The position numbers and the translations under genes were made by a program. Shown here piece after piece: positions 10,837-62,201 of a stretch of 64,000 bases of DNA (its first letter is position 1; every line of letters starts with the position of its first letter). The notes under the pieces were generated by a model that was not told the origin of the DNA, searched no databases, and saw only the letters and a list, made by a program, of their open reading frames with translations. Source of the stretch: Clostridiales bacterium (GTDB lineage: Bacteria; Bacillota; Clostridia; Peptostreptococcales; Anaerovoracaceae); NCBI GenBank assembly GCA_009776955.1, contig WRMW01000008.1:1-64000 (forward strand). The letters run 5' to 3'.

Positions 10837-13800
10837 ATGATGAAATCGAGGAGAGGGTCGCGCTTGTTGGCGATATTGTTGGCGTTTGTCCTGGTGGCGG
10901 GAATGGCGCCAGGGGGCGTTTTTGGCGAGGAGGTAGGGGTCGGCGAGGGCGGGCAGTCGGTCGGCGATCCTGCGACGGACGGCGTGACGGAATCGGAGCA
11001 GGATGGGTTCGGAGAGCTCGGAGAGCCTGTAGAGCCTGGAGAGCCTGGGGAGCCCGAAGTCACCGAACCGGCAGGCTTTCTGCAGCCTATGGCGGATTCG
11101 TTGCCGGACATCAGCGGGCCCGGCGACTGGCTTAGCGCGCGCGGCAACCCGCAAAACATGGGTGTGTTGAACGCGCTGACGCCCACGACGGCGACCGAAA
11201 CAAACCTGAAATGGGCGAGGACTTTTGGCACAGGCGGATTCGCCGACACCCCAAACAGCCCTGTTATTATCGGCGACCATTTAATCGTGTCCGCGAACAA
11301 CGTAATATGCAAACTTGACAGGGAAACAGGTAATGTCGTTGCCCAGACCACTATGGTCGCCGCGCCGAGCTTCGGGATATCGTCCCTTGCCTACGGCGCA
11401 GGCATGGTCTTTGCCCCGATAAGCAACGGGCGCATACAGGCGTTCAACGCGTCCACGTTAGAGTCGTTGTGGGTCAGCGAGCAGATAGGCGGGCAGTCCC
11501 TCAGCCCCATTGTTTACCATGACGGTTATGTATATACGGGCTTTTGGCAGAGCGAAACGGCCGACAACTACTATGTCTGCCTGTCCGTGACGGATGAGGA
11601 TCCTGCCGACCCGACCGAAACGAAACTTGCCCAGTGGAAGCACCTGGCGGCGGGCGGATATTATTGGGCCGGCGGCATCGTACTGGGCGATTATATAGTA
11701 TTCGGCAGCGACAACGGCGTTGGCACGGGTGAAGAAGCCGGCCTGTCTAATGTGTTCGCCCTGAACCGCATCACGGGAGATGTATCGGATGTGCTTGAAG
11801 GGGTGTTCGGCGACCAGCGCAGCGGCATTGCCTACGACGATGTGACTGGCAATCTGTTCTTTGTAAGCAAGGCCGGCTATATCAACACGGTCAAATTTGA
11901 TGAAAGCACGGGAAAATTTGACAAAAGCAGCTTTAAGATGAACCGCCCGTTTAACGCGCAGGCGACGAGCACGCCCGCCGTATACGACGGCACCGTGTTC
12001 TTTGGCACGGGCGGAGGCCCGGGTTCTCCCGGCAAGATTGTGGCCGTTGAAGCCGAGACTTTGGATCTTATAGACGATGTGGACCTTATCGCATACCCAC
12101 AAGGCTCGCCGCTGCTTACCACTGCCTATGAAGATGAAGACAAGCTGTTCCTCTATATTACATACAATGGGTTGCCCGGCGGCCTCGCCATGGTCGAGTT
12201 TGACACGGATACAAGGGAACTCACAAAAACGGAAATTTTCACGCCGCCCGCGGGCATGCAAAATTACGCGATATCCAGCGTGGTCTGCGACAAAGACGGC
12301 ACATTGTACTTCCACAACGACTCCCGTACCATGTTTGCCATTGAGAGGAATGTGGCGTGGCTTGAGTCGCTTTCCGCGGATATCGGAACGTTTGACAGGG
12401 CTTTTGAAACAGGCGTCCTGACATATGAGCTTGTCGTCCCCATAGGGACTGAGGATGTAGGGCTAAGTTTCACCGCCTCGGTGGGCTCTACAGTCGAGGT
12501 AAACGGCACGGCAAACGTCGCAGGCGTTGCGACCATCGAGCTTGCGGACGGCACGGCGAAGGCGGTAATTAAGGTGGCCAACGGCGGCCAAAACAGGGAT
12601 TATACGGTGAATATACGCGAGGCGAGCGATGAAACGGGGCTTGGCGTTTCGATCAATCTGTTGAACGCCGCGCCCGCCGACGCAAGCTTTGTGCCTTTTG
12701 ACGAGGACAATAATTATAGCCACAGCCTTGTAGATGAGACGACTTTTCGCCGCGTCTGGCTAAAGCGAGCCGATGTCAGGGCGAATGTGGTTGCCACCGC
12801 TGTCAGAGGCGTGGCGGCTTCAATGGGCGGGGCTGCGCTTGCGCCAGGCACGGAATTGACAAACATGAACACCTTGACTTCGGGCGTGGGCGCGACGTAT
12901 TTGCGGTACAATATCTACTTTGCGGGGAGTCTTGCGAATGCGGTAATCAAGCTTACGGTCACGGCAGAGGATGGTGTGACCACGGAGGAATTCTTTGTAA
13001 CGGTCAGCAGGCCCGGCGACCCAGACCCGCCGGTGAGCGAGGTAAAAGTGTTCCTGCAGGAAGATGACAGGGGCTTTCTGATAGCGGATACTGAGTTCAG
13101 CGTCGAGGCGGATCTTTCGGAGCGCTACGGCTTTGCCGATACCTATAACGGAGAGGAAGTGACCGTGCTTGACGTGCTTGTCGCCGCGCATATCGCGATT
13201 TATGGCGACGTCGAGGCGGATATACAGGACGTGCTTGCCGTGTCCGGCGGCAACGTGACAAAACTTTTCGGGTATTCGGACGCCTCAAGCTTCACCTTTC
13301 TTGTCAACGGCGCTTTCACGAAAGACGATGACGGATGGGGCATGTTGATTGTGGACTCGACGGTAGAGGACGGCGATATAGTATCGTTTTTGCTGCGCGA
13401 CGACGAATTCGGTTGGGGCGGTCTGATGAACCAGTATACATGGTTTGAGCAGGACGGGGTACCCGTCAGCTCGGTTACGGCTGATGCGGGGAGCGATTTG
13501 ACGCTCAAGTTGCAGGGGGTTTGGCTGATGATGCTGTTTGAGGATGAAGAAGATCAGAAAAAGGCCGCCGGCCCGATTGAGGATGCGGATATTTATGACC
13601 TTGAAATATCTGACGGCGGCGGTTTCAAAGTCGCCACTAGAGACGACAAACTTGCCGAGACTGACGAGGACGGGGAGTTTACCGTATCGTTTGACATGCC
13701 CGGCACTTACTATATCACTGCTACCGACGGCAACAGTTATGAAACCCTGATAATCCCGTGGCTAGAGGTAGTTGTGGCAGCGGGCGAGCCAGACCCCGAC

Positions 13801-16557
13801 CCCGATTCGATGGGCACGGATATTTCGCTGAGGCCTGTGCATACAATACTTACGAAAGACAATCCTTCAATCGTGATCGATGCGGATATTCTGCCTGATG
13901 ACCTATCTGGCCTCGTGGCTATCGACTGGTTTATAGACGGCGCGGAGGCGTGGGGCGCAGGCGAAGATGAGCCACTGATCACTTTGGAGCAGTCGCCGGA
14001 CAGGAGAAGTGCGACCGTGACTGTGACGGAAGAAGGGCTAAAGGCGGACGGCATATACCGCATACGCGCAAGGTATAGCACAGCACGCAGCCAGGTGTTC
14101 AGGCAGGCCACCGCGACGGTCGAAGTGCTGTCGGAAAATTCCGGCGAGGCGGCGTTTGGAATCCTCGGAACGGCGTTTACATTCAACAAGGCGATGGTGG
14201 CAGGCGTGCGTGTGCCTATCAGAATGGAAGGGATGAACACGGCGGCGAACGGCGTACAGGCAAGGCTTGTGAAGCAGGACGGGACGCCCTATGTCGAGGG
14301 CGAAAACCTTTGGAATATCAAAGCGGAGATAAGCAAGGACGATCCGCGTGTCATAGAATTGTCGGAAAAGACCCCGTTTGCGACCAAAAATGTGAAAAAT
14401 GTGAGAAGCAGGCTGCAGATCCTTCCGGCGGGCGCAGACGAGGAAACGGGCTGGATTACTTCAACCAGCAGTTCGAGCGGCAACACGTTCACGCTGACGG
14501 TAAGCGAAACATGGCCGAAGGTGACGCTTAGGCTTAGCAGGGCGTTGAGCAGGGCGTTCCCGTCCGTGCCCGCCGAGCTTACGGCTGCCACGCCGGTCGG
14601 CATCGGCGAGGTGAGGGAAGTGGGTCTTGACGCTTTTGCCGCAAACACGCTTGAGTACAATGCAGCTACGTGGGAGCTAAAGCTTGCGAACGACTGGTCG
14701 GGCATGCCGAACAATGGCAAGGTCGCCTTGAGGACGTCCGGCGCAGGCTATGTGGACATAGAAGGCTATCGCCGCATGGAGGTCGGCCAAGGCACTCGCA
14801 CGGCAAAAAACATGCCTACACTGAACGTGACGGTCGCTGCGGTCTCTGCGTTGCCCAAGCTCAAACTCAACAAGACTTCGTATCCCATACTGACAGACGA
14901 GCAGGTCGCGAACGCAGGCGGACACTTTGATGGGGCGGGGAGGGAAGCCGTGATGACTCTTATCTCTACCGACAAGAAAGTTCCGTTTGCGATTATTCCC
15001 GAAATTACAAAGGTGGAAATAGCCGACAAGGGAACGCGCGCAAACGGCAAGGACGAATTGACGGCGTGGCATATAGAAGGCAACAGGATCGGGCTTTCCG
15101 CCAAGGCGGGCGTAAGGGCAGGCACGGCAGCGGTAGAGGTATACTTTGAAAACGCGCCAAATCCGCGTGTATTGCAATTCCGCATTACTACGCCGCAGCT
15201 TTCCGCGCTAAAGACGACAAACAAGGCCGGTACAGTCAATATGAACAGGAATCATATATTGCTTGAAAGCACGCCGGTCTTTAGGGTTGCGGACATACCC
15301 ATCGCCATGAATGTGGACAACCTTGTGCTCGACGATTGGGACATAATGTTCGCGACGCCGGTCACGGGCAGCAACTTCAGGACCTTGCCGTGGAATGGCG
15401 AACTTGACGGATTTGGGTCTTGGGACGGCGCGGTGTATGCCGAGTCTGTGGACGGCGAAAACGCATTGAGAATAATGGCAAACCAAAGCCAGCTCAACAA
15501 GTTGGTGGCTGCACACAACGCCGCTGCATCTGGCAACGAAAAGCGAAACTTGAGGTATACGTTGCGTATCGGGTCGAAGAAGCTCAACGACGCATTGGGC
15601 AGGGCGCCGGGCAAGGAATTGACATTCAACACTACGCTGAATATTGTCAAGGCGGCTCCGACGTTCACGATAAGCCTGTCGAAGGCAAGGATCGACATCT
15701 CGAACCCTGAATCCGTCCAGACGGCGACGGTGCGGCTTGTAGGCACCACGTCCCAGATAAGCGGCATCAGGCTCTTTGAACGGGAGTTTGGCAGGGATGG
15801 GAAAAAGAATGTGTTGATCAAAGCGGGCAATGACGAGAGCCTGGATTTTGTGGTTGAAAACATCAGGGGGCTGAGCTTCGACATCAAGCGCGCGCCCGAC
15901 GTGTTGGTGCCGCCGACCGTGGCGAAAAGGCTCAGCGTCGAGGTGACGCTTGCCAATGGGCAGGTCCTGACATCCTATGCGGAATCGCTGACCAATATGG
16001 GAGAGCCTAGACTGGACATTGGCGGCAACCCCATATTTTCGGAGCCAAACAACAGGACGGTCAACATCAATCCGAGGCAGACGGTGGGCCGTGCGGCTTT
16101 CAGCAGAAACAATGTGACGCTTTATGGCGACAAGGCGATGCAGGGCGAGGGCATCGCGCTTGACCTTATTACGCCGGACAATGTGAAACTTGGGGCGGTC
16201 GGGATCGACCCTGCGAGTTTAAGGCCCTTTGCGATAGATGAGGACGGGCTTAGGGACGGCTTCCGACTTGAGCGAAAAGGCGAAAACGAATGGACGATTT
16301 TCTTCGCGAACGACAGGCTGCCGATACGTGGCGACAGCCGCGGAAGGCCGACCGCTGCTACGCTCGCAAACAATTACAAGATAGGGCTGCAGCTATGGGC
16401 CGAGGGGACATATGAATGGCAGATGGAGAGCGACGGCGTCACTTTGGTGAGGGACAAGAGCGGCAACCCAGTGCCGGTAGCGCTGAAAAATGCAAAAGGC
16501 AAGAATGTGTCAAAGCCGATCGTGGTAAATGTGACGGTGCGGATAGTGAGGGGATAG
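10837..16557 (+). CDS. giant secreted protein: PQQ-like beta-propeller + cadherin-like + DUF4430 domain + long repetitive C-terminal module
   Basis: Signal peptide MMKSRRGSRLLAILLAFVLVAGMAPGGVFG; PQQ-like repeats (GDWLSARGNPQNMGV...); DUF4430-like TVLDVLVAA...FTFLVNGAFTKDDDGWGM. Confidence 0.85.
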   Translation: MMKSRRGSRLLAILLAFVLVAGMAPGGVFGEEVGVGEGGQSVGDPATDGVTESEQDGFGELGEPVEPGEPGEPEVTEPAGFLQPMADSLPDISGPGDWLSARGNPQNMGVLNALTPTTATETNLKWARTFGTGGFADTPNSPVIIGDHLIVSANNVICKLDRETGNVVAQTTMVAAPSFGISSLAYGAGMVFAPISNGRIQAFNASTLESLWVSEQIGGQSLSPIVYHDGYVYTGFWQSETADNYYVCLSVTDEDPADPTETKLAQWKHLAAGGYYWAGGIVLGDYIVFGSDNGVGTGEEAGLSNVFALNRITGDVSDVLEGVFGDQRSGIAYDDVTGNLFFVSKAGYINTVKFDESTGKFDKSSFKMNRPFNAQATSTPAVYDGTVFFGTGGGPGSPGKIVAVEAETLDLIDDVDLIAYPQGSPLLTTAYEDEDKLFLYITYNGLPGGLAMVEFDTDTRELTKTEIFTPPAGMQNYAISSVVCDKDGTLYFHNDSRTMFAIERNVAWLESLSADIGTFDRAFETGVLTYELVVPIGTEDVGLSFTASVGSTVEVNGTANVAGVATIELADGTAKAVIKVANGGQNRDYTVNIREASDETGLGVSINLLNAAPADASFVPFDEDNNYSHSLVDETTFRRVWLKRADVRANVVATAVRGVAASMGGAALAPGTELTNMNTLTSGVGATYLRYNIYFAGSLANAVIKLTVTAEDGVTTEEFFVTVSRPGDPDPPVSEVKVFLQEDDRGFLIADTEFSVEADLSERYGFADTYNGEEVTVLDVLVAAHIAIYGDVEADIQDVLAVSGGNVTKLFGYSDASSFTFLVNGAFTKDDDGWGMLIVDSTVEDGDIVSFLLRDDEFGWGGLMNQYTWFEQDGVPVSSVTADAGSDLTLKLQGVWLMMLFEDEEDQKKAAGPIEDADIYDLEISDGGGFKVATRDDKLAETDEDGEFTVSFDMPGTYYITATDGNSYETLIIPWLEVVVAAGEPDPDPDSMGTDISLRPVHTILTKDNPSIVIDADILPDDLSGLVAIDWFIDGAEAWGAGEDEPLITLEQSPDRRSATVTVTEEGLKADGIYRIRARYSTARSQVFRQATATVEVLSENSGEAAFGILGTAFTFNKAMVAGVRVPIRMEGMNTAANGVQARLVKQDGTPYVEGENLWNIKAEISKDDPRVIELSEKTPFATKNVKNVRSRLQILPAGADEETGWITSTSSSSGNTFTLTVSETWPKVTLRLSRALSRAFPSVPAELTAATPVGIGEVREVGLDAFAANTLEYNAATWELKLANDWSGMPNNGKVALRTSGAGYVDIEGYRRMEVGQGTRTAKNMPTLNVTVAAVSALPKLKLNKTSYPILTDEQVANAGGHFDGAGREAVMTLISTDKKVPFAIIPEITKVEIADKGTRANGKDELTAWHIEGNRIGLSAKAGVRAGTAAVEVYFENAPNPRVLQFRITTPQLSALKTTNKAGTVNMNRNHILLESTPVFRVADIPIAMNVDNLVLDDWDIMFATPVTGSNFRTLPWNGELDGFGSWDGAVYAESVDGENALRIMANQSQLNKLVAAHNAAASGNEKRNLRYTLRIGSKKLNDALGRAPGKELTFNTTLNIVKAAPTFTISLSKARIDISNPESVQTATVRLVGTTSQISGIRLFEREFGRDGKKNVLIKAGNDESLDFVVENIRGLSFDIKRAPDVLVPPTVAKRLSVEVTLANGQVLTSYAESLTNMGEPRLDIGGNPIFSEPNNRTVNINPRQTVGRAAFSRNNVTLYGDKAMQGEGIALDLITPDNVKLGAVGIDPASLRPFAIDEDGLRDGFRLERKGENEWTIFFANDRLPIRGDSRGRPTAATLANNYKIGLQLWAEGTYEWQMESDGVTLVRDKSGNPVPVALKNAKGKNVSKPIVVNVTVRIVRG

Positions 16558-16558
16558 T

Positions 16559-17410
16559 GTGTTGAGGAAAATATTTGCGAAAAAATCATATGTGGCTGCG
16601 GTGGCGGTTGTGGCCGCCATCGCGGTGGTCAGCGTTTTGTATTTTGCAGCGGGCGAGGGGGGTGAGGGCGGCTCGCGCACGTTCTTTAGCTCGGTCTATA
16701 TGCCCCCCGCCGCTTCGGGTTCGGTTGCAAACCCCTTTGACGCTTTTGCGAATAATGGGGTGGGCCCAGAAACGCAATTGGGGATGCCCGGAGCGTTTGG
16801 GACGCCTGGGGCGTCGAGGCAGGTTCCGGGCTCGGTTGCCTCTGACAATCAGCAGGGCGGCAGGCGGGGCGGTGGCTCGGAGTCGGGTGGCGGCGGCATG
16901 GGCGGTGTAGGGGGTATGGATGCGGGGGGCGGTCAGGGCGGTCAGCCCGATGGCGGTCAGGGCGATGGCGGCGGCAGTGGTCAGCCCAGCGGCGGAAACC
17001 CATCCGATGGAGGCGGCGGCAGTGGTCAGGACGGCGGCCCGTCAGGTCCGACAGTAACAATCTCAATCGACGCAAGCACGATGGGGCGCGGCTTTGTAAT
17101 GCGGCCCCGCACAGCATCATTTACCGAGGGCGAATCCGTTTTTGACGTGTTGTTCCGCGAGTGCCGCGCAAGCGGAATACATATGGCTTCAAGATGGACG
17201 CCGCTATACAGCAGCTACTATATTGCGGGGATCGACAACTTGTACGAGTTTGACGGCGGGGACCTTTCCGGCTGGATGTACAGGGTCAACGGGTGGTTCC
17301 CCAATTATGGGGCGAGCAGCTATACCCTTGAGGACGGAGATGTTGTCGAGTGGCTTTATACCCGCGACCTCGGACGCGATATCGGCGGCGAGGGCGCGGT
17401 CGGCGGGTGA
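16559..17410 (+). CDS. DUF4430 (transcobalamin-like C-terminal) protein with N-terminal membrane anchor and Gly-rich linker
   Basis: N-terminal TM (VAAVAVVAAIAVVSVLYFA); G/Q/S linker; ESVFDVLFRECRASGIHMAS...GGDLSGWMYRVNGWFPNYGASSYTLEDGDVVEWLYTRDLGRDIG. Confidence 0.88.
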   Translation: MLRKIFAKKSYVAAVAVVAAIAVVSVLYFAAGEGGEGGSRTFFSSVYMPPAASGSVANPFDAFANNGVGPETQLGMPGAFGTPGASRQVPGSVASDNQQGGRRGGGSESGGGGMGGVGGMDAGGGQGGQPDGGQGDGGGSGQPSGGNPSDGGGGSGQDGGPSGPTVTISIDASTMGRGFVMRPRTASFTEGESVFDVLFRECRASGIHMASRWTPLYSSYYIAGIDNLYEFDGGDLSGWMYRVNGWFPNYGASSYTLEDGDVVEWLYTRDLGRDIGGEGAVGG

Positions 17411-17421
17411 CGGTCTGACTT

Positions 17422-18258
17422 ATGCCTGAAAAAAGACGTTTATCGAGGCGCACGGTCGTGGCCGCAATAATTGTCATCCTGTGCATACCGGCGGTGATGG
17501 CGGTCAACATATTGTTTTTTGAGGACCGCAGCTACTATGCGACGTCGTTTATAATAATCGCGCTGTCGCTTGTGCCGTTTGCGCTCGTGTTTGAGGGGCG
17601 GAAGCCGCAGGCACGCGAGCTTGTGGTGATTGCGGTCATGGTGGCGGTCGCTGTGGTAGGGCGGGCGGCGTTTTTTATGCTGCCGCAGTTCAAGCCCGTG
17701 GTGGCAATAGTCATAATAGCGGGCGCGGCGCTCGGCGCGGAGAGTGGCTTTGCGGTCGGGGCGCTTACGGGGTTTGTGTCCAATTTTATCTTTGGGCAGG
17801 GGCCGTGGACACCGTGGCAGATGTTTGCTTTCGGAATAATAGGATTTTTGGCGGGGCTTATTTTTTACAGGCTTGCGGCGTCGATAGGGGCACCGAGCAG
17901 GGACGGGTCGGGTGCAGAGGGGGTTGTTGCGTACAAGTGGTACGACACAGGCCGCCTTGGGTGGAATGTGCGGGCGCGCAAACGTGTGGAATGGCTCCGT
18001 GTGTTCGTCCTATGCGTATTCGGCGGCGTCATCACCTTTGTGGTATATGGCCTGCTGCTCGACACGGCGGCGGCCATCATGTTTTCGTCAGGCGATGTCA
18101 CGCTGAGCCAATTGCTGACGACGTACCTGACGGGGGCGCCTTTCAATATGGTGCATGCAGCGGCAACGGTGTTTTTTCTCGCAGTCCTCGCACGTACCAT
18201 GATTGAAAAACTTGAGCGCGTCAAGAAAAAATACGGGCTGCTAGGAGCTGAGGCATGA
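17422..18258 (+). CDS. ECF transporter S component, putatively cobalamin/corrinoid specific (CblT-like)
   Basis: Polytopic S-component pattern (RELVVIAVMVAVAVVGRAAFFMLPQFKPVVAIVIIAGAALGAESGFAVGALTGFVSNFIFGQGPWTPWQMFAFG); next to ECF T and A genes; downstream of a cobalamin riboswitch. Confidence 0.87.
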   Translation: MPEKRRLSRRTVVAAIIVILCIPAVMAVNILFFEDRSYYATSFIIIALSLVPFALVFEGRKPQARELVVIAVMVAVAVVGRAAFFMLPQFKPVVAIVIIAGAALGAESGFAVGALTGFVSNFIFGQGPWTPWQMFAFGIIGFLAGLIFYRLAASIGAPSRDGSGAEGVVAYKWYDTGRLGWNVRARKRVEWLRVFVLCVFGGVITFVVYGLLLDTAAAIMFSSGDVTLSQLLTTYLTGAPFNMVHAAATVFFLAVLARTMIEKLERVKKKYGLLGAEA

Positions 18259-19205
18259 TAGGGCATATATCCGAAAACCGTAGCATTTTCGCAGGCTACC
18301 ACCCGCTTGTCAACTATATGTGGTTTGCCTATGTAATATTGCTGCCGGTTTTTTTCATGCACCCCGTCATTGTCGCGATTTCGTTTGTGCCCGCCCTTGC
18401 GCATTCTATTTATCTGGGGCGCAGAAGGGCCGCCCGTTTCGGGCTGTGCTTCGTCTTGCCGCTTATGGTCATAGCCGCGCTGTTCAACCCCGCATTTAAT
18501 CACCGAGGCATCACTATATTGTATTACATAAACTACAACCCAATTACGCTGGAGGCAGTTATTTATGGAATTGTCGCGGCCGGCATGATAGGTGGCGTCG
18601 TTTTCTGGTTTGTCTGCTATAACTCGATTATGACATCGGACAAGTTCATCTATTTGTTCGGGCGGATTGTGCCAGCGATGTCCATGGTCATCTCGATGGC
18701 GCTGCGGTTCGTCCCGCGCTACAGGGCGCAGATAAAACGCATAATTGCCGCGAGGCGCGGGATCGGCTTTGACGTAAGCTCCGGCAAGTTCATCGAGCGC
18801 GTGAGAAGCGGGGGCGCCATCCTTTCGGTGATGCTGACGTGGGCGCTTGAGAACGGGATCGAAACCGGCGACTCCATGCTTTCGCGCGGCTACGGGCTGC
18901 CGGGGCGTACGGCATATTCCAATTATCGCTTTGATTCGCGCGACCGGACGCTGGTACTGCTTCTGGCTGCTTTGATGTCGGTCGCGCTGTTCGTGTGCGT
19001 CACGGGGCTGATATCCGTGGTGTACTATCCGATGTTTGTTATGGAGAGCGTTTCTCCCTTTGCGGGGATTGCGTATGTCTGCCACGGCGCGGTTTGCTTG
19101 CTGCCGCTTGCGCTTGAACTTAGGGAGGACGCGATTTGGAACATGGCGCTGCACGGGTGCGGAGCGTGCGCTGGAAGGCAGGAGGGCGTGCCATGTTTGA
19201 AGTGA
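18255..19205 (+). CDS. ECF transporter T component (EcfT)
   Basis: HPLVNYMWFAYVILLPVFFMHPV; ARRGIGFDVSSGKFIERVRSGGAILSVMLTWALENGIETGDSMLSRGYG; overlaps neighbouring genes. Confidence 0.9.
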   Translation: MIGHISENRSIFAGYHPLVNYMWFAYVILLPVFFMHPVIVAISFVPALAHSIYLGRRRAARFGLCFVLPLMVIAALFNPAFNHRGITILYYINYNPITLEAVIYGIVAAGMIGGVVFWFVCYNSIMTSDKFIYLFGRIVPAMSMVISMALRFVPRYRAQIKRIIAARRGIGFDVSSGKFIERVRSGGAILSVMLTWALENGIETGDSMLSRGYGLPGRTAYSNYRFDSRDRTLVLLLAALMSVALFVCVTGLISVVYYPMFVMESVSPFAGIAYVCHGAVCLLPLALELREDAIWNMALHGCGACAGRQEGVPCLK

Positions 19206-21022
19206 GGGGGCTGACGTTTGCCTACCCTGAGCGGGGGCGGGCGGCGCTTTCCGATGTGTCGCTGTCGGTGGAAGCGGGCGAGTTTGTGGTGATATGCGGC
19301 AAGTCGGGGTGCGGCAAGTCCACGCTACTGCGCCACTTAAAGACAGTGCTTACGCCGTTTGGCAGACGGGAGGGCGAGGTGTTTTTTGACGGCCGCTTGG
19401 TCGAAAGCATTTCAAAGCGCGAGCAGGCCTCACGAATAGGCTTTGTATTGCAGAGCGCCGAGAACCAGATTGTCACCGACAAGGTGTGGCATGAACTGGC
19501 GTTCGGTCTTGAAAGCCTTGGCGAGAAAACGCCTGTCATACGGCGGCGCGTTGCGGAGATGGCGTCGTTTTTCGGTATTCAGGAGTGGTACGAGAAAAGC
19601 GTGTTCGAGCTTTCGGGCGGGCAGAAGCAGATACTTGCGCTTGCGGCGGTGCTGGCCATGCAGCCAGATGTGCTGATACTCGACGAGCCGACGAGCCAGC
19701 TCGACCCGATTGCGGCAGAGGACTTTATAGAAACGCTAAAAAAGATAAATGATGAGATAGGCACGACCATTATCCTGTCCGAGCACAGGCTTGAGGGGGT
19801 GCTGCCGAGGGCCGACAGGGTGGCAGTGATGGCAGAGGGGCGGGTGCTGTGCGAGGGGGGCGCGTCCGAGGTGGCGTGGGAGTTGAAGCGTCTGGGGGAT
19901 CCGATGTTGACTGCTATGCCGACGCCGGTGCGGGTGTATTTGGCGCTGGAAGCAAGCCAGGCCTTGCGACGCGTCCGCAGAGGTTCTACCGAAAGGCTCG
20001 CTCCGCCTTCGTTTGGCTCCGCCTCGCTTTCGGTAACCCCTTGCTCCGCCTCGCGCCTTCGGCGCTCGACGCGAAGTCCCGGCTTTTCTTCGGTCCGGCA
20101 AGTGCCGCAGACTGTGCGGGAGGGGCGGGTTTATCTTGAGGGGAAGTACGCTGGACGTGGCGTGGACGGTGAGCGTGGCGTTGGTGGTGATGAGCCTGCT
20201 CGCAATAATGACGGTGCCACCCGCGAGCCTATTATCGAGATGAAGGAGCTGTGGTTTCGGTATGAGCGCGATGGGCGTGACATTGTGAAAGACCTTGCGC
20301 TCAATGTATATCCGGGCGAGTTTGTGGCAGTGGTAGGCGGCAACGGCGTGGGCAAAAGCACCATGCTCGGCATCGTGGCCGGCGACAACAAATATTACCG
20401 AGGCAAGGCGCGTGTCCTCGGCTTCGACCCGAAAAAGGCTGACGGGCGGTGCCTTACCGACGCGGGCTTGGCTGTGTTGCCCCAAGACCCGCAGACATTG
20501 TTCACGCGCGCCACGGTCTTTGACAACCTTATAGATGTGGCAACGGCCCATGCGAAACGGCGCGGCGAGCCTGCGAGCCCCGAAGAAATAGAAGCGGAAG
20601 TGTGCCGCGTCTGCGAAATGACAGACATAGTGAACCTGATGGGTTTTCACCCCTTTGACGTAAGCGGCGGCGAGCAACAGCGCACCGGGCTTGCGATGGC
20701 GTTGCTTACAAAACCAAAGTTATTATTGCTCGACGAGCCAACCAAGGGGATGGACAGCTTTTTCAAGGAGAAGTTTTCCGCAATACTGAAGCGTCTTTGC
20801 TCGGACGGGATTGCCGTGCTTATGGTCTCGCATGACGTGGAGTTTTGCGCGAAATATACAGACCGCTGTGCGTTGTTTTTCAATGGCGGCATCGTCAGCG
20901 AGGGCACGCCACGCAAGTTTTTCAGCGGAAACAGCTTCTATACGACCGCCGCCAACCGCATGGCGCGGGGGTTGTTCCACGACGCGATCACCGCAGAGGA
21001 AGTCGTGGCTCTGCTTTTATAA
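19193..21022 (+). CDS. fused ECF transporter ATPase (two ABC domains)
   Basis: Two Walker A (GKSGCGKSTLLRHL, GGNGVGKSTMLGIV), two signatures (LSGGQKQILALA, VSGGEQQRTGLA). Confidence 0.93.
   Translation: MFEVRGLTFAYPERGRAALSDVSLSVEAGEFVVICGKSGCGKSTLLRHLKTVLTPFGRREGEVFFDGRLVESISKREQASRIGFVLQSAENQIVTDKVWHELAFGLESLGEKTPVIRRRVAEMASFFGIQEWYEKSVFELSGGQKQILALAAVLAMQPDVLILDEPTSQLDPIAAEDFIETLKKINDEIGTTIILSEHRLEGVLPRADRVAVMAEGRVLCEGGASEVAWELKRLGDPMLTAMPTPVRVYLALEASQALRRVRRGSTERLAPPSFGSASLSVTPCSASRLRRSTRSPGFSSVRQVPQTVREGRVYLEGKYAGRGVDGERGVGGDEPARNNDGATREPIIEMKELWFRYERDGRDIVKDLALNVYPGEFVAVVGGNGVGKSTMLGIVAGDNKYYRGKARVLGFDPKKADGRCLTDAGLAVLPQDPQTLFTRATVFDNLIDVATAHAKRRGEPASPEEIEAEVCRVCEMTDIVNLMGFHPFDVSGGEQQRTGLAMALLTKPKLLLLDEPTKGMDSFFKEKFSAILKRLCSDGIAVLMVSHDVEFCAKYTDRCALFFNGGIVSEGTPRKFFSGNSFYTTAANRMARGLFHDAITAEEVVALLL
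19975..20111. repeat. palindromic, compositionally distinct in-frame insertion in the ATPase linker
   Basis: Inverted repeat TACCGAAAG (19987-19995) / CTTTCGGTA (20027-20035); GCGCCTTCGGCGC hairpin; GCTCCGCCT repeated three times; flanked by CCGCAGA copies. Confidence 0.5.
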
Positions 21023-54226: not shown

Positions 54227-57200
54227 GTGCAAAAAACGCATCCGAATCGGAGAGTGGATTTGAGCGTAAGGCGAGAGGTTTTTCATAGGTTTGTTGCATG
54301 GGGGCTAACGTTCGCCTTGGTGGCTGCGATAGCCTCTGTAGGCACGTTCGCGGAAACCGATCAGGGCGAGGTTGCTTCTGGCATTGCGATGGGCGAAGCG
54401 GAACAGTCCGACGAAGCGGAACAACCCAGCGAGCAGGGCGAAGCCGATGATGAAGGCACCGATGACATTGGCGACGACGGCGCTGACAATGAGGGCTACC
54501 CGGAAGCGATCACTCCCGCGAATGATGTCGATGACAATCCTGATCAAGAAGCATTGGATCAAATAATGGCATTGATGTCCGATGACGAGCCAGATGAGAG
54601 TGCCTACGACGGCTACATAGTTGTAGTAAAACCTGAAGAAGTTTCAGGCGATATGGCTGGGGCGGCATCGGAAGACCCGGTCGCGGGCAACCTCTTTGCT
54701 GTCGAATCGCCAGAGGAGGCGCTGGAGTTCGCCGAGCCCGAGCAGATAATAGCCATAGAGCCTAACTTTATCCTTATGCCTCTTGAATTTCCCCAGACCG
54801 CGCCAGAAGATCCCTACTATAAGGATGGTCTCCAGTGGAATCTTAGCGGAGACTTCGGCGTGGATGCGCTCGGTGCGTGGAGCCGCGAGCTATCAGGTAC
54901 GGGTGTGCGCGTGGCGGTGATAGATTCTGGCATCAAGGAGCATGAAGACATGGAGCCAATCAAGGACGGGTATAGGTTTGGCAACAGCGGCACCCTGCTT
55001 GGAACTTTCGCCCAAGGCGGCTATGCGGTGGTGGACGATGATTATCTGAGTACTCACCGATCGGCGGGGCATGGCACTTTTGTCAGTTCAATGGTGTCTG
55101 CCAAGACCAACAACGGAGTGGGGATAGCGGGGCTTGCCTACGGTGCGGAGGTAGTCCCGTACAAAGTGCTGGGACGTACGCTGAACGCGAGTTTTCTAGA
55201 CCTTGCGGCGGCGCTTAACCATATAGCGCAGCACAATGAGCAAAACCCTGAATCGAAAATAGAAGTTGTCAATATGAGCCTAGGGGCGGCGTCGTCGGCG
55301 AAGCCGACTTCGCTTCAGGGAAGCATCGACGCGTTGGACGAGCAAGGAGTCATCATGGTGGCTTCGGCAGGGAACGGCGCTGACAACAACACAACTAATA
55401 TAATGTATCCGGCGGGCAATGACAGCGTTGTTGGCGTCGCATCAATTGATGAAGACGGAATAAGGGCGGACAATTCCCAGACAAACGACTCTGTTGATAT
55501 CGCAGCGCCTGGAGTATTGATATACGGGCTTTCGTATGCAAGCCCGACGTCCTACAGGACTATGAGCGGCACATCTATGGCGGCGCCGCAGGTAGCCGCT
55601 GTTGCTGCGCTGGCCAAGGAGATGGATCCTGATATCGACCACGAGGAATTCATGGACTTGCTTGAAAGGACAAGCAAGGCGCCTACGGACGGCGATACAG
55701 GCAAGACGCCGGAGTACGGCTTCGGGCTGCTTGACGCGGCGAGCCTCGTCAAAGAATATAACCGCTACACAATAAAGCACTCATACGACGACGTGATAGA
55801 CGAATCGCTGACAGTGAGAGGCTATGCAAAAACGGATGAGCAGTCGTTTACTGCATCTCTCGCAATGGCGGATGTGGGAGACCCGAAGCGCGGATATATG
55901 GTCGAGAGCTGTACGCTTAACGGGGTGCCGATTGACCTCTCGCTGACCTATGTCTTGGTTGAAGACGAGGATGTGCTTGTGGTGGACTACGTCATTGACG
56001 AAGGGCAGTTGTGCACCATCGAGTTTGAATACGAGATACATAATGACTCCCTTGACGGCACAGATGCGGAAATCACTGCGACGTATGATGACGCGGCGAT
56101 AGAAAGCGGCGATGTGGTGTTCAAGGGCGGAGAGCTTGTCGTCACCGTGGAGGCTGAGGGCGCGGATGCGTACGCATACGCTTGGGCGGTAGACGGTGAG
56201 CCGGTTTCGGCTGACGGGGCAAGCTATAGCATGTTCTTAGGCGACGGGGACTATAAGTCGGTAGAGGTTTTCTGCAAAGTGCGAGGGGTGAGCTTGCCGG
56301 CTGTCATTACGGAGTCCTTGCCGGACGGCAAGGTGGGCGAGGAGTACAATGCGACGCTGGAGGCTACGGGGACAGAGCCCATAGAGTGGGGCATTGCGGG
56401 CGGCAGCGAAGCCGGTGGCCTCTGGATCGGCGGCGGCATGCCGGGCGGCCTTTCACTCAACTCGCAGACCGGTGAAATCTCCGGGATGCCGACTGCGGAA
56501 GGCATATTCAGCTTCACCGCAATGGCGGGCAATATAGCCGGCGATGACACAATGGAGCTTTCCATTAAAATCGATGCCGTTCCAGAGCCGGATATGACCG
56601 CGACTCTTAGCCTGATGCCGTCCCATGCCATAATTTTCGATATAGGCGAAACGGCGGTCTTTGAAGCGTTTTACAGCGCGGATGCATACGATCCCGAGCT
56701 GGTCAAGTGGGAAGCGGAGGGCGATGCGGGAGATTTCATCACCATAGACGATTCCGGCAAGGCCATCGCCTTGGTGCAGGCTACGATAGACGGGCTTTCC
56801 GAGGCGAGGACGGTACGGATAAGGGCTACTTACAACGAAGCGTATATCGCTACTGCGACGGTGACGCTGCTCCCGCCGGACGAGGGCGAGGATGACGGCT
56901 CTCCCGCCGTTCGGCTGCTCGCAACCAAGGCCACCATAAACCTTGCAAAAACGGAAGGGACGATGGTGCCCTTGCATATCACAAGGCGGCTAGAGCCGCC
57001 AAGCGGTGGTGGCAATGGGACTTACGATGTCGTGTTCACGGGCAAGGGCGCCGAAAGCTTTACAGGCTTTGTCCGAGACAGCAGGTTTTTGGAGATACTT
57101 GCCGCAGAGGGCACGAAGAAGGGCACGTACAAGAAAATAGGGGTTGAGATCAACGGCGTTTCCGCTGGCACGATGACGCTTGCCGTCAATGAAAAATTTC

Positions 57201-58867
57201 CAAAGATCAAGATAGTGACGGAGCGGCTGAACCTTTCGCGTCCAGAGGATATCGCACGGGTCACGGCAACAAGCAACGACGGCGCCATATGCACGGTCGA
57301 ACGCATCGAGGTCGTGTCCTCGAACAAAGCTTCGTATGTGGCCGTGCAGGGCGTGGACGGCAGGGACGGCTTGATGCTCACCTCTACTGCGAAAAAAGGA
57401 AGCGTCAGAGTGGAGGTGACGGTCAAGGCGGCAGGCTACGAAAGGCTTTCCAAAAATGGAAGCCCGACAGAGGGCACAAGTTTCAGAGCCACGGTAAAAA
57501 TAGTAAACGACGTGCCGAGGCTCAGGCTTTCGACAAGCTTATTGAGGATGGCGGGCACGGCGCCGGCAACAGTCCGACTGGAATCGGCAGTCAAAAAGAG
57601 GGCGCTCGAAAGCTGGGGCGCAATAACGGCGATAAGGCTTGCCAAAGCGGGCGAGCTTACAGCGTCGCAGACCAAGAAAGCCCTTGGCGGCATTGTTTTG
57701 GAGCGTACGGGAAAAGATGCGTTTGCCATAAACTTTGACCGTCCAGAGGATGTCAAGGCGGGTACAGTCTTTGTCGCGGTGGATATTGACGGAGGAGCGA
57801 GGCCTGTCATTCTGCCTCTTACGATGAAAACAATAAACCCTGCCAAATCCACGATGACCGCCAGCCCCAGAAGCGTCGCATGGAACAGGAACCAGCCGAA
57901 TGAGACGACACCCATAGCACTCGGCTCGAACCAGAGCAATCTTGTATTTGAAGCGGGGAATATTGGGGTGGAGCTCGTCACTGGCAGCGGCAAGTCGGAA
58001 AAAGTCGGCACGCTCCCGTTGTATATAGATATAGCGGAACGCCTCGACAACCAAGTGGTGCTTAGCCTGAACAATGGCGAGCTTGAAGACCATCTTGGCA
58101 ATGGCGGCACGTGGCCTAAGGGCGGGAAACACAGGCTTAGGATAGCCGACGATGCCACCGGAAAGAAGGTGCATGTGACCCTCACGATTGCCGACCGGCC
58201 TGCTTCGGCAATCATCTCCCTTAGGGGCAGGATAGATATCGCAAATCCGGATTCGGCCATAACGGCGACTGTGCGGTTGCGGAACACCACGGCGCCCGTA
58301 AGAAGCGTTGCGCTCAGCAGTAGCGACTTTGAAGCCCGGTACAGCGAGGGCAATACCTTTGCCATCATGGCAGGCCATAGGTTTGTCGTGCCGGTCAAGC
58401 AAAGCGTCACTGCCACGATCACGCTAGAGAACGACGAAGTCCTGACCCGTAACATAAACATAACTCCAAGACAGGGCACTCTCAGGGCGTGGCAGAGCAG
58501 AAGCGCCGTGACCTTGTACAAGGATAGGCCTCTGGAAGGCGAGCAAGTGGGTCTAAAGCTGAGGAAGCCGGACGGCGCAGTGCTCGGCGTGGTGCAGATA
58601 CGTGAAGCGAGCCAAAAGCCCTTTGTGGGCGACGGCTTCAGGCTTGAGCGGAACGGCGCAAACGACTGGAGCATCTATTTTGCGTGGGGCGAGCCTCCGA
58701 TACCCGCAAAAGGCAGTAAACTGGCTTCGCGATACACCGTCGGGATAGAACTTTGGGCTGAGGGGACTTACAGGATGGAAGGCGGACGCGCGGCCCCGCT
58801 TAGGGATGATCGGAATCGAGCAAAAACCAAACCGAGAATCGTAAACGTCCGTGTGAATATCCGGTAG
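54227..58867 (+). CDS. large secreted S8 (subtilisin-like) peptidase with Ig-like domain and repetitive C-terminal module
   Basis: Triad motifs VRVAVIDSGIKEHED, GHGTFVSSMVSAKTNN, MSGTSMAAPQVAAVAALA; putative Ig (LPDGKVGEEYNATLEATGTEPIEWGI). GTG start used; internal GTG/TTG starts also possible. Confidence 0.9.
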   Translation: MQKTHPNRRVDLSVRREVFHRFVAWGLTFALVAAIASVGTFAETDQGEVASGIAMGEAEQSDEAEQPSEQGEADDEGTDDIGDDGADNEGYPEAITPANDVDDNPDQEALDQIMALMSDDEPDESAYDGYIVVVKPEEVSGDMAGAASEDPVAGNLFAVESPEEALEFAEPEQIIAIEPNFILMPLEFPQTAPEDPYYKDGLQWNLSGDFGVDALGAWSRELSGTGVRVAVIDSGIKEHEDMEPIKDGYRFGNSGTLLGTFAQGGYAVVDDDYLSTHRSAGHGTFVSSMVSAKTNNGVGIAGLAYGAEVVPYKVLGRTLNASFLDLAAALNHIAQHNEQNPESKIEVVNMSLGAASSAKPTSLQGSIDALDEQGVIMVASAGNGADNNTTNIMYPAGNDSVVGVASIDEDGIRADNSQTNDSVDIAAPGVLIYGLSYASPTSYRTMSGTSMAAPQVAAVAALAKEMDPDIDHEEFMDLLERTSKAPTDGDTGKTPEYGFGLLDAASLVKEYNRYTIKHSYDDVIDESLTVRGYAKTDEQSFTASLAMADVGDPKRGYMVESCTLNGVPIDLSLTYVLVEDEDVLVVDYVIDEGQLCTIEFEYEIHNDSLDGTDAEITATYDDAAIESGDVVFKGGELVVTVEAEGADAYAYAWAVDGEPVSADGASYSMFLGDGDYKSVEVFCKVRGVSLPAVITESLPDGKVGEEYNATLEATGTEPIEWGIAGGSEAGGLWIGGGMPGGLSLNSQTGEISGMPTAEGIFSFTAMAGNIAGDDTMELSIKIDAVPEPDMTATLSLMPSHAIIFDIGETAVFEAFYSADAYDPELVKWEAEGDAGDFITIDDSGKAIALVQATIDGLSEARTVRIRATYNEAYIATATVTLLPPDEGEDDGSPAVRLLATKATINLAKTEGTMVPLHITRRLEPPSGGGNGTYDVVFTGKGAESFTGFVRDSRFLEILAAEGTKKGTYKKIGVEINGVSAGTMTLAVNEKFPKIKIVTERLNLSRPEDIARVTATSNDGAICTVERIEVVSSNKASYVAVQGVDGRDGLMLTSTAKKGSVRVEVTVKAAGYERLSKNGSPTEGTSFRATVKIVNDVPRLRLSTSLLRMAGTAPATVRLESAVKKRALESWGAITAIRLAKAGELTASQTKKALGGIVLERTGKDAFAINFDRPEDVKAGTVFVAVDIDGGARPVILPLTMKTINPAKSTMTASPRSVAWNRNQPNETTPIALGSNQSNLVFEAGNIGVELVTGSGKSEKVGTLPLYIDIAERLDNQVVLSLNNGELEDHLGNGGTWPKGGKHRLRIADDATGKKVHVTLTIADRPASAIISLRGRIDIANPDSAITATVRLRNTTAPVRSVALSSSDFEARYSEGNTFAIMAGHRFVVPVKQSVTATITLENDEVLTRNINITPRQGTLRAWQSRSAVTLYKDRPLEGEQVGLKLRKPDGAVLGVVQIREASQKPFVGDGFRLERNGANDWSIYFAWGEPPIPAKGSKLASRYTVGIELWAEGTYRMEGGRAAPLRDDRNRAKTKPRIVNVRVNIR

Positions 58868-58895: not shown

Positions 58896-61800
58896 ATGAA
58901 ACGGTTGCAACTCAATAAAGTTATTTCGATATTGTTGCTATCGGCGATGATGGCGATGTTTGTGCCGTTGTCGGGCATGGCGCTGATGGATGCCGGCGAA
59001 GGAATAGGGTCGGATGCCGGCGGCGAAACGGAGCACGGCGGTGGAGCGGAGCACGGCAACGAATCAGATGCGAGGCCGGATGCCCACGACTGCCTGGACG
59101 GGGATGGCGAAGCTCCGGAATGCGATTTGGAGCATGGCGAAGAAGCTGATATAGAAGCAGGCATAGAAGCGGATGTAACAGATGAAACACTCACAGACGG
59201 GGACGGTATTCTCGAACCGCCCATGGTGCAGGCTTTTGCAGGGGACTCGGAAGAAAGCGACGAGGAGCTGGCGCCGCTGGCAGACCATCCCTGGAGCGGC
59301 TCTACTCCGCCCACGGTCGCTGGCGGCGATACGGTGACGCTCGGCGGCTCGCCGTCCGGCACGCTTGACATTCCGATCGGCGCGACCGTCACCATGAACG
59401 GCGTGGCCGCAGAAACAACGGCAGGTCTTACCCTGAATATCGGCGCGGGAGCGACAGTTATATGGGACGCGATCCTTGCCGGCTCGTCGTCGGCGTACCT
59501 CGTATCCCTGACAGGAAGCGGCACGTTCGAGATGAGGGAATCGAAAATTGCGAATATGGGGACGCCGGGCGGCGGCATAAGCATAGGGGGCAATGTGGCC
59601 GTCAATATCGGCAGCGGCGCCTCGGTTTTCTCCGATGTGCGCGGCAACCCCATCCGTGTCAATGCGGGTGGCGTCACCATCACCATAGGCCCTGGCGGGC
59701 TGGTCGAGAGCCTTGGGGCGAACTCCGCCGACCCCAACGCCGCCATACAGGTCAATAATAATTTGCCGAACGTCACCATAAACGTGAACGGCGGCTCAGT
59801 GGTTTCAACGAATGAAGGCTATGCGATCAATGATGGCGCGGGGACGGCTGAGGTCGGCAACACCACCGTTATCAATGTCCGCAGCGGCGTGGTAAGCGCC
59901 GACCGAGCCTGCGCGATTCACTCCACAGGTTCGGGTTCCGTCGCGAATATAAGCGGAGGCTCGGTGTCGAACGCCGCCGCCAACAATCTCAACCCCGCAA
60001 TCAACATGAACGCCGGCTCAGGCTCCGGCATCGACAATATAAATATCAGCGGCGGCACGGTGCAGTCGAGGACGGCTGCGGGGTGGGCTGTTCAGACGAA
60101 AGGCAATGTGGTGGTCAGCGGCGGCCTTGTCACCGCAGTGAACGGGCGCGCGATAAACCTCGCCGGCATGACGTCCAAGGCCACGGTCACGGACGGAAGG
60201 GTGGAGGCGACAGGCAACGGCACGGCCATAAGCACGTCGACCACAGCCCTAGGCGAAGTGGTCAATACCTCCGTGGTCGTATCGGGCGGGGCGGTCTGTT
60301 CGGAAGCCGGCCTTGCGATCAATGTCACGGGCGCGAACTCCATCGTCGAGGTGAGCGGCGGCTCGGTTTCGACTGAGGCTACGATGTCCACGGCCGCCGC
60401 CCAAAGGCACGCAATCAATGCATCGGGGGCGAACTCTTCCGTCACGGTGAGCGGCGGCGAAGTCACCGCCACCTTCGGCAGGGCAATAAACGCCGCTGCG
60501 GGCGTCACGGTAGGCGACGGGTTTGTGTTCGCATATGGCACGGGGATGGCCGATGTGGTGCAGGGCTCCCCTTTCGCCGGGCCTTCCCTGCCCGCAATAG
60601 TGGTGGCATGGAATCAGGCGGCAGGGCGAAGGACATACTTGTCGATGCCGATAAACCATCAAGACTTGGTTTTTATGCCTGAAGAGTTAAGCCTTAGCGA
60701 TTTCTCGTGTTTTTGGTATAACGACCCGGCCACAGACAGCGCGGGAATCCGTTATATAGTGACCGCCCCGACTTCCAATGTGGGATTCTTCCCGATAGAT
60801 ATTGTGACCATAATCAGCGACTACGGCCTGATTTTCGACGCGAGCGACGGCAGGATGTATATGAACAATACCGGTTCCGGCGTGCCAGGGGGCGAGAATG
60901 GCGAGTTCACTGCAGGCAGGGGGTCTGTATGGGACGGGGCGCCGGCGATTCTTACCCTGAACGGCTTCTTCTGGGCTACTGCCGCCCCGATCGCGTTGAC
61001 TATTATAAACGGCAACACGGAGATTGTGGCGACGCCCGGGACTTTCAACGGTTTTTCCGTAATCGGCTCGCAGGCGAGCGGCAATTCTGTTGGCATGTCC
61101 GCACCAGGTCTTGATATCACGATAGGGGGCGGCGGGAATATGAGCGTCAGCGCTGGAGAGGCCGCAGGCTCGTCTTTCGGGATAGATTGCGACGGCCTCA
61201 TTTTCGGCGGCGGGACGCTGACTGCCCAAGGCTATACGAGGGCGTTGAATGCCGACAGCTTCGGCGACACGACCGATGCCTATAGATATTGGTGGGATAC
61301 CGGGTACAACGATCCTGGCGGCACGGGGACGGTATACGCCGCCGATGCCCCGCCGCCCCTTAATACGCCATATAGCCAAGACCCGTCCCACAGGTATGTC
61401 AAGTTCACCACGGTCCCGTTTGCGGTGGTGGATGACGTGAGCGTCACAGGATTGACGGGCACCCCGCTCATTACGGTACCGCAGCCGCAGAGGGCGAGGC
61501 TGACGATAAGCGGCGACAGCGTTTCGGCGGGCGGGCTTTCCGGCGTGGATGCCGGAAGCTGGTTCGCATATCTGCCTGCGGGAGTGACGGTTACTGCAAG
61601 CGCTTCGCCTGGCGGCACCCACGTCATAGAACTTACGTTTACGGGAACGCCGCTGGAAGCATCCGTTTCAGTGTTTGACATTGTAATACCCGGAAGCGCA
61701 CTTGCAGGGGGCGGAAGCCTTGCTGTGTTTTTCAACCCTGACGCGGGGTTCAATATAACGGCGATTTATGATCTGCTCGTGACTGCCGGCGACGGCGGCG

Positions 61801-62201
61801 CCATAGCGGACATCAGCACAAGCACAGGGAAGTACCGTGCTGCCACCGCCATAAGCGTGTCGGCAAATGCGGATGCAGGCTACCGTTTCACACAATGGAC
61901 GGCAAGCGGCGTGGAATTGGGGAGCGGGGCAGCAAGAACGGCCACAGTAGCGTTCCCCATGCCTGCCGAGAGGGTGGTCCTTACGGCCAACTTTGCGCGC
62001 ATAACTCCCCCGGGCGGCGGTGGCGGCGGCGGCGGCGGGCATCATATAGTTTCCGGTGCAGATGCGGCTCTGCCGCGCACTGGCGACGATAGAAACATGC
62101 AGGGCTGGGTGATGGCGCTGCTGGCATCTGTGATGGGGCTGGTCTTTGTCGGTATTTTCGTTGCTTGGAAAAAACGGTTTGACATAAACCAGGGTTTTTA
62201 G
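58896..62201 (+). CDS. LPXTG-type cell-wall-anchored surface protein, beta-helix-like repeats and an InlB B-repeat-like domain
   Basis: Signal peptide; repeated (V/I)SGGxV motifs; ITAIYDLLVTAGDGGAIADISTSTGKYRAATAISVSANADAGYRFTQWTASG; C-terminal LPRTGDD + TM + KKRF. Confidence 0.9.
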   Translation: MKRLQLNKVISILLLSAMMAMFVPLSGMALMDAGEGIGSDAGGETEHGGGAEHGNESDARPDAHDCLDGDGEAPECDLEHGEEADIEAGIEADVTDETLTDGDGILEPPMVQAFAGDSEESDEELAPLADHPWSGSTPPTVAGGDTVTLGGSPSGTLDIPIGATVTMNGVAAETTAGLTLNIGAGATVIWDAILAGSSSAYLVSLTGSGTFEMRESKIANMGTPGGGISIGGNVAVNIGSGASVFSDVRGNPIRVNAGGVTITIGPGGLVESLGANSADPNAAIQVNNNLPNVTINVNGGSVVSTNEGYAINDGAGTAEVGNTTVINVRSGVVSADRACAIHSTGSGSVANISGGSVSNAAANNLNPAINMNAGSGSGIDNINISGGTVQSRTAAGWAVQTKGNVVVSGGLVTAVNGRAINLAGMTSKATVTDGRVEATGNGTAISTSTTALGEVVNTSVVVSGGAVCSEAGLAINVTGANSIVEVSGGSVSTEATMSTAAAQRHAINASGANSSVTVSGGEVTATFGRAINAAAGVTVGDGFVFAYGTGMADVVQGSPFAGPSLPAIVVAWNQAAGRRTYLSMPINHQDLVFMPEELSLSDFSCFWYNDPATDSAGIRYIVTAPTSNVGFFPIDIVTIISDYGLIFDASDGRMYMNNTGSGVPGGENGEFTAGRGSVWDGAPAILTLNGFFWATAAPIALTIINGNTEIVATPGTFNGFSVIGSQASGNSVGMSAPGLDITIGGGGNMSVSAGEAAGSSFGIDCDGLIFGGGTLTAQGYTRALNADSFGDTTDAYRYWWDTGYNDPGGTGTVYAADAPPPLNTPYSQDPSHRYVKFTTVPFAVVDDVSVTGLTGTPLITVPQPQRARLTISGDSVSAGGLSGVDAGSWFAYLPAGVTVTASASPGGTHVIELTFTGTPLEASVSVFDIVIPGSALAGGGSLAVFFNPDAGFNITAIYDLLVTAGDGGAIADISTSTGKYRAATAISVSANADAGYRFTQWTASGVELGSGAARTATVAFPMPAERVVLTANFARITPPGGGGGGGGGHHIVSGADAALPRTGDDRNMQGWVMALLASVMGLVFVGIFVAWKKRFDINQGF

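Follow-up and report, generated by a model that had tools for sequence, protein, structure and literature searches.

Non-covalent attachment of proteins to the surface of Gram-positive-type bacteria rests on a short list of domain families. CWB2 (PF04122) of Clostridioides difficile and SLH (PF00395) are single envelope-binding modules carried by tens of secreted proteins. In the type IX secretion of Bacteroidota, an Ig-like C-terminal domain is common to many cargo proteins, and Ig-like arrays are also common as plain spacers. The wall-binding families have been catalogued as SLH, CWB1, CWB2, LysM, SH3-type, SPOR and ChW (PMC5817068). Choline-binding repeats are well known to hold proteins non-covalently on the wall, and the WxL domain occurs C-terminally on many secreted proteins of one strain and attaches them non-covalently (PMC5817068).

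The window analysed here is a 64-kb stretch of DNA with two large plus-strand genes whose products share a C-terminal module. The first gene encodes a 1906-aa secreted protein (10837..16557) with a signal peptide, a PQQ-type propeller (best stretch of the PQQ_2 match, 11239..11541) and a cadherin-like domain (PF12733, 12391..12618) before the module. The second encodes a 1546-aa secreted subtilase (54227..58867) with a Peptidase_S8 domain at 54896..55726 (Pfam, E=6.4e-43). In BLASTP, residues 987-1903 of the propeller protein aligned with residues 786-1545 of the subtilase over 937 columns at 27% identity (E=1e-45), and the pair scored 162 bits against a best of 28.9 among 1000 residue-shuffled versions of the subtilase C-part. 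This bears out the homology reported in the sequence-only reading of the DNA. All the motifs quoted there for the two C-termini are present, and the module starts it placed at 13800 and 56590 agree within about 16 bases with the limits of an iterated profile, 13816..16554 (913 aa) and 56600..58864 (755 aa). The N-terminal parts are unrelated, as it had stated, except for a weak signal-peptide-like similarity. Its name for the first protein, the DUF4430 giant, was wrong: Pfam gave PQQ_2 and Cadherin-like, and no DUF4430 at E<=1 in the propeller protein.

DUF4430 sits in the next gene downstream (16559-17407). This gene is followed on the same strand, nearly contiguously, by an ECF S component (17422-18255), CbiQ (18255-19202) and a double ABC ATPase (19136-21019). 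The propeller giant may act at the surface as the partner of an uptake system of the vitamin or cobalamin type.

A search of the source genome (2.03 Mb in 22 contigs, 91% complete, 0.2% contaminated) with the module gave 53 matching segments. When the ORFs were scored with the iterated profile, 17 proteins were found to end in one full-length copy each (666-1079 bits, spanning 750-1040 aa), and the copy was C-terminal in 17/17. The module had been described as common to the propeller protein and the subtilase, which it is, but it is not confined to them, with at least 17 proteins holding a full copy. The family members read out total 48,340 aa, about 7.1% of the genome, with protein sizes up to 7605 aa; one 6608-aa member lacks a start at a contig end. 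There is also a divergent, shortened 18th copy (C17:3689), and a profile of the last two domains detected three C-terminal fragments at contig edges, on C13, C17 and C20.

Some of these contig ends bear on the assembly. C17 and C20 have a common 127-base end and their sequences part after the stop codon, while another 127-base overlap, between C10 and C1, joins two halves of one protein; 127 bases is probably the word length of the assembler. At C13:53104-53448 only about 98 positions from the end of the module profile are present, preceded by unrelated sequence with stop codons, and this is either a truncated module copy or an assembly error. A 7515-aa ORF on the minus strand of C2 (1-22547) resembles the family in its signal peptide and has related repeats of the Ig type, and its C-terminus is lost at the contig end; the missing part could be one of the module fragments found at contig edges.

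The heads that precede the module are diverse. Pfam matches included subtilase with He_PIG, PQQ propeller with cadherin-like domain, Beta_helix_3 (several proteins), Glug, YDG with MBG and He_PIG, InlB-type repeats and PKD, and some heads had no match; the protein of the divergent copy has an aBig_2 head. Read by eye, the N-termini resemble signal peptides, often with a common (V/I)AW-L-L-L-V-T-M-P pattern. In a maximum-likelihood tree built from the modules, the propeller protein and the 6608-aa YDG/MBG protein form a pair (support 100/100) and the PKD protein nests inside the beta-helix group (support 100/100). Because fully supported module clades mix head types, exchange has taken place, either of heads on a given base or of bases on a given head, and the module appears to be the constant part on which heads were exchanged.

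The module was searched for outside the source genome in overlapping samples of 60 relatives (including three congeners), 200 family, 396 order, 388 class and 398 phylum genomes, about 1000 different genomes in all. No module was found in these ~1000 genomes by BLAST-level and profile searches, the first-pass sensitivity of which is uncertain. Subthreshold hits listed as possible distant homologues came from G710, G088, G082, G105, G647, G1000 and G897; the six that were opened (G710, G088, G082, G105, G1000 and G897) were partial, non-C-terminal or in unrelated frames, and were put down to chance. A scan of genome contigs with the subtilase returned one weak match, limited to the He_PIG region, and plasmids and phages gave no module match. 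The three congeners are drafts (83-86% complete, 150-210 contigs), and judging from these searches the module is likely absent from the genus outside the source genome. With matches in the source genome only across the family, order, class and phylum samples, the proposal that the module is lineage-specific has held.

It had also been called uncharacterised, and this too is sustained. Neither Pfam nor NCBIfam gave a meaningful match to the module in any of the 17 copies, no family of either collection covers it in the two proteins of the window, no PDB chain matches its profile, and no description of such a module was found in a partial coverage of the literature. GC content is the same in module, head and window (56-57%), with GC3 slightly under that of most metabolic genes. 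A foreign origin was considered on composition, and neither GC nor GC3 shows a sign of recent import.

Known anchor signals were then compared with the module. SLH, CWB1, CWB2, LysM, SH3-type, SPOR and ChW had no Pfam match in the 17 members at E<=0.1, and the same was true of the WxL domain (PF13731), whose distal YxxxLTWxLxxxP motif is absent from the last 200 aa of all copies. As noted from the sequence alone, neither protein of the window ends in LPXTG. No copy ends in LPXTG with a hydrophobic stretch and positive tail; the copies finish at a beta-strand (..VNVRVNIR and stop codon), and their only xPxTG strings are DPxTG, within a hydrophilic loop. No NCBIfam type IX C-terminal domain matched the module. 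The module was accordingly judged to be neither a WxL nor a type IX domain, to carry no LPXTG signal and to belong to none of the catalogued wall-binding families.

Sortase substrates do occur beside module genes. The gene after the subtilase (58896-62201) encodes a 1101-aa protein with an InlB-type repeat that ends in LPRTGD, a hydrophobic stretch and a positive tail, a classic sortase substrate, and on C17 the gene after the divergent module protein (stop at 12159) has a similar NPHTGD tail. The genome has a single Sortase (PF04203) match, at C12:7467-7949, flanked by an aromatic-pathway gene cluster and, on the opposite side, by TasA-like and RPRTG-tailed proteins.

The very last residues of the copies form a short strand of similar sequence (..TVYNVRVNIR), and an invariant W-x-x-G-T-Y lies just upstream. 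Such an end would suit a sorting signal for a dedicated machine, a type IX-like or sortase-like enzyme, with the rest of the module as a stalk. No Omp85 was found in the 91%-complete genome (control genomes were positive in 7/14), and its absence means that the outer membrane required for type IX secretion is lacking. Together with the choline-binding repeats, GH25, sortase and ECF transporter, it indicates a Gram-positive-type (monoderm) cell. The missing NCBIfam match counts against a sorting signal as well, and the last two domains, a 223-aa well-folded pair at pLDDT 94, look structural and not like a cleaved tail. We therefore consider a sorting signal distinctly improbable.

The structure of the subtilase copy (56600..58864) was predicted by AlphaFold2 from a 17-row alignment, and the succession of strands was used to place the domain boundaries by eye. 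The whole-module model (pLDDT 80.8, pTM 0.63) is almost all strands and forms about seven successive sandwiches; D6-D7 alone reached pLDDT 94.4 and pTM 0.85. The domains, with approximate boundaries for the first five, are D1 (56600..56893, an acidic beta-sandwich), D2 (56894..57196), D3 (57197..57508), D4 (57509..57838), D5 (57839..58198, where the least confident part of the model falls), D6 (58199..58471, the most conserved, with the RIDIANP..TVRL region) and D7 (58472..58864, with the invariant W-x-x-G-T-Y, and VNVRVNIR directly before the stop codon). D6-D7 of the propeller protein lie at 15652..16554. The predicted tandem beta-sandwich fold is that of an Ig-like stalk and fits the stalk proposed in the sequence-only reading. 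Internal sequence repeats were not found among the seven domains (pairwise HHalign probability <=18%); with no detectable homology between them, the module consists of seven different domains in fixed order and is not a repeat array.

Foldseek against the PDB returned generic tandem Ig-like arrays, namely titin, cadherins and the S-layer proteins Sap, SbsB and SbsC, with TM-scores of <=0.22 over the whole model and <=0.46 for the D6-D7 model among the matches listed. The low whole-model scores probably reflect a flexible arrangement of the modelled domains. The presence of Sap, SbsB, SbsC and cadherins among the many Ig arrays, and of one conserved base common to many paralogues, could point to an assembly platform, in which the modules of ~20 proteins bind one another, like to like or in mixed pairs, and build an S-layer-like coat or matrix held by something else. 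This we regard as unlikely, since the whole-model scores are generic to tandem Ig-like arrays, divergence to ~25-30% identity makes a single common lattice less likely, and Pfam shows no SLH-type or other coat-holding anchor on these proteins.

Conservation is highest at the end of the module. Mean pairwise identity was 0.43 in D6 and 0.41 in D7 versus 0.30-0.34 in D1-D5, and the invariant residues near the C-terminus include W719, G722, T723 and Y724. Five copies are close at the DNA level (~75-89%), and among these dN/dS was 0.24-0.41 (Nei-Gojobori); the module is thus under purifying selection. The close copies, the contig-edge fragments, which record recent copying, and the common use of Ig arrays as spacers would all suit a mere stalk duplicated with its genes. 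In that case the proteins would be shed or only loosely attached, and their common C-terminus would go back to recombination within the genome. Against this, copies down to 25% identity keep the seven domains, their order and the C-terminal position; conservation peaks in the last two domains and not in the middle; the dN/dS values are low; and a subtilase paralogue carries choline-binding repeats instead. A mere spacer is, on balance, a doubtful explanation.

The isoelectric points of heads and ends differ, at 4.05-4.54 for the heads and 8.7-10.6 for the last 250 aa in 17/17 proteins, but these C-terminal stretches carry a modest net charge (+2 to +16) and equally basic windows lie elsewhere in several of the proteins. 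The polarity is real, but as basic stretches are not limited to the C-terminal end it was given little weight as proof of wall binding.

The subtilase paralogue is encoded in the same genome at C1:68973-74684. It is 59% identical to the subtilase of the window over residues 108-603 and has choline-binding repeats and GH25 where the latter has the module. In one sister species (G003) a related subtilase has the same architecture of choline-binding repeats and GH25, and in another (G002) a subtilase has choline-binding repeats. This swap is the strongest of the indirect arguments that the module may retain proteins at the surface. Two large secreted-looking proteins of the genome lack the module, one with a subtilase and fn3 (C1:90841-97005) and one with InlB-type repeats and a membrane-like tail (C3:167116-172941), and other modes of retention therefore coexist.

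Given its strict C-terminal position behind interchangeable heads and the subtilase paralogue, surface attachment is a reasonable inference for the module. Our preferred reading, which we hold to be somewhat probable, is that the module is a lineage-specific C-terminal base holding giant exported proteins on a Gram-positive-type surface. Each protein would be exported by its signal peptide, with the head (protease, propeller, beta-helix or repeat arrays) facing outward and the fixed row of about seven Ig-like domains forming a rod or stalk of constant make-up beside the envelope. D6-D7, the best conserved part and always at the very end, would touch a component of the envelope non-covalently, with a wall polymer as the most probable partner. 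Against this reading, the genome also has choline-binding repeats and one sortase gene and so has no strict need of another anchor; the module matches no catalogued wall-binding family; and Ig-like arrays often serve as plain spacers.

A wider proposal is put forward more tentatively, as plausible but short of probable. The module would be a new envelope-binding family, invented or acquired in one lineage, that has given rise to ~20 giants (7% of the DNA) by head exchange and partly replaces the choline-binding repeats of the congeners, with Ig-like domains that bind a wall polymer. If this is true, a module that lies outside the short list of attachment families, sits on ~20 giants of one genome and is missing from the relatives sampled would show that a single lineage can evolve and multiply anchors of its own, and that the attachment parts of large surface proteomes escape annotation. 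For testing it, the two subtilases, one with choline-binding repeats and one with the module, offer a direct comparison.

Among known systems, choline-binding repeats (CWB1; PF01473/PF19127) are the nearest in position, holding the C-terminal half of a subtilase, the place of the module in the subtilase of the window. They are short and widespread, whereas the module is made of about seven non-repeating Ig-like domains and has no sequence relation to them. The CWB2 and SLH families resemble the module in being a single shared part on proteins with different functional regions, but they are unrelated to it in sequence and widespread, and the module is known from one genome. Like the module, the WxL domain is C-terminal on many proteins, though it spans 120-190 aa against 750-1040 aa. 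The type IX C-terminal domain is likewise a common Ig-like C-terminal domain, and differs in that there is no NCBIfam match and no Omp85 here. The S-layer arrays Sap, SbsB and SbsC have a row of Ig-like sandwiches as in the predicted fold of the module and appear among its Foldseek matches; they have no sequence similarity to it, and the fold match is as generic as those for titin and cadherins. The module thus stands outside all the families tested, while the principle of one shared module on many heads is already known from choline-binding, CWB2, SLH and WxL proteins.
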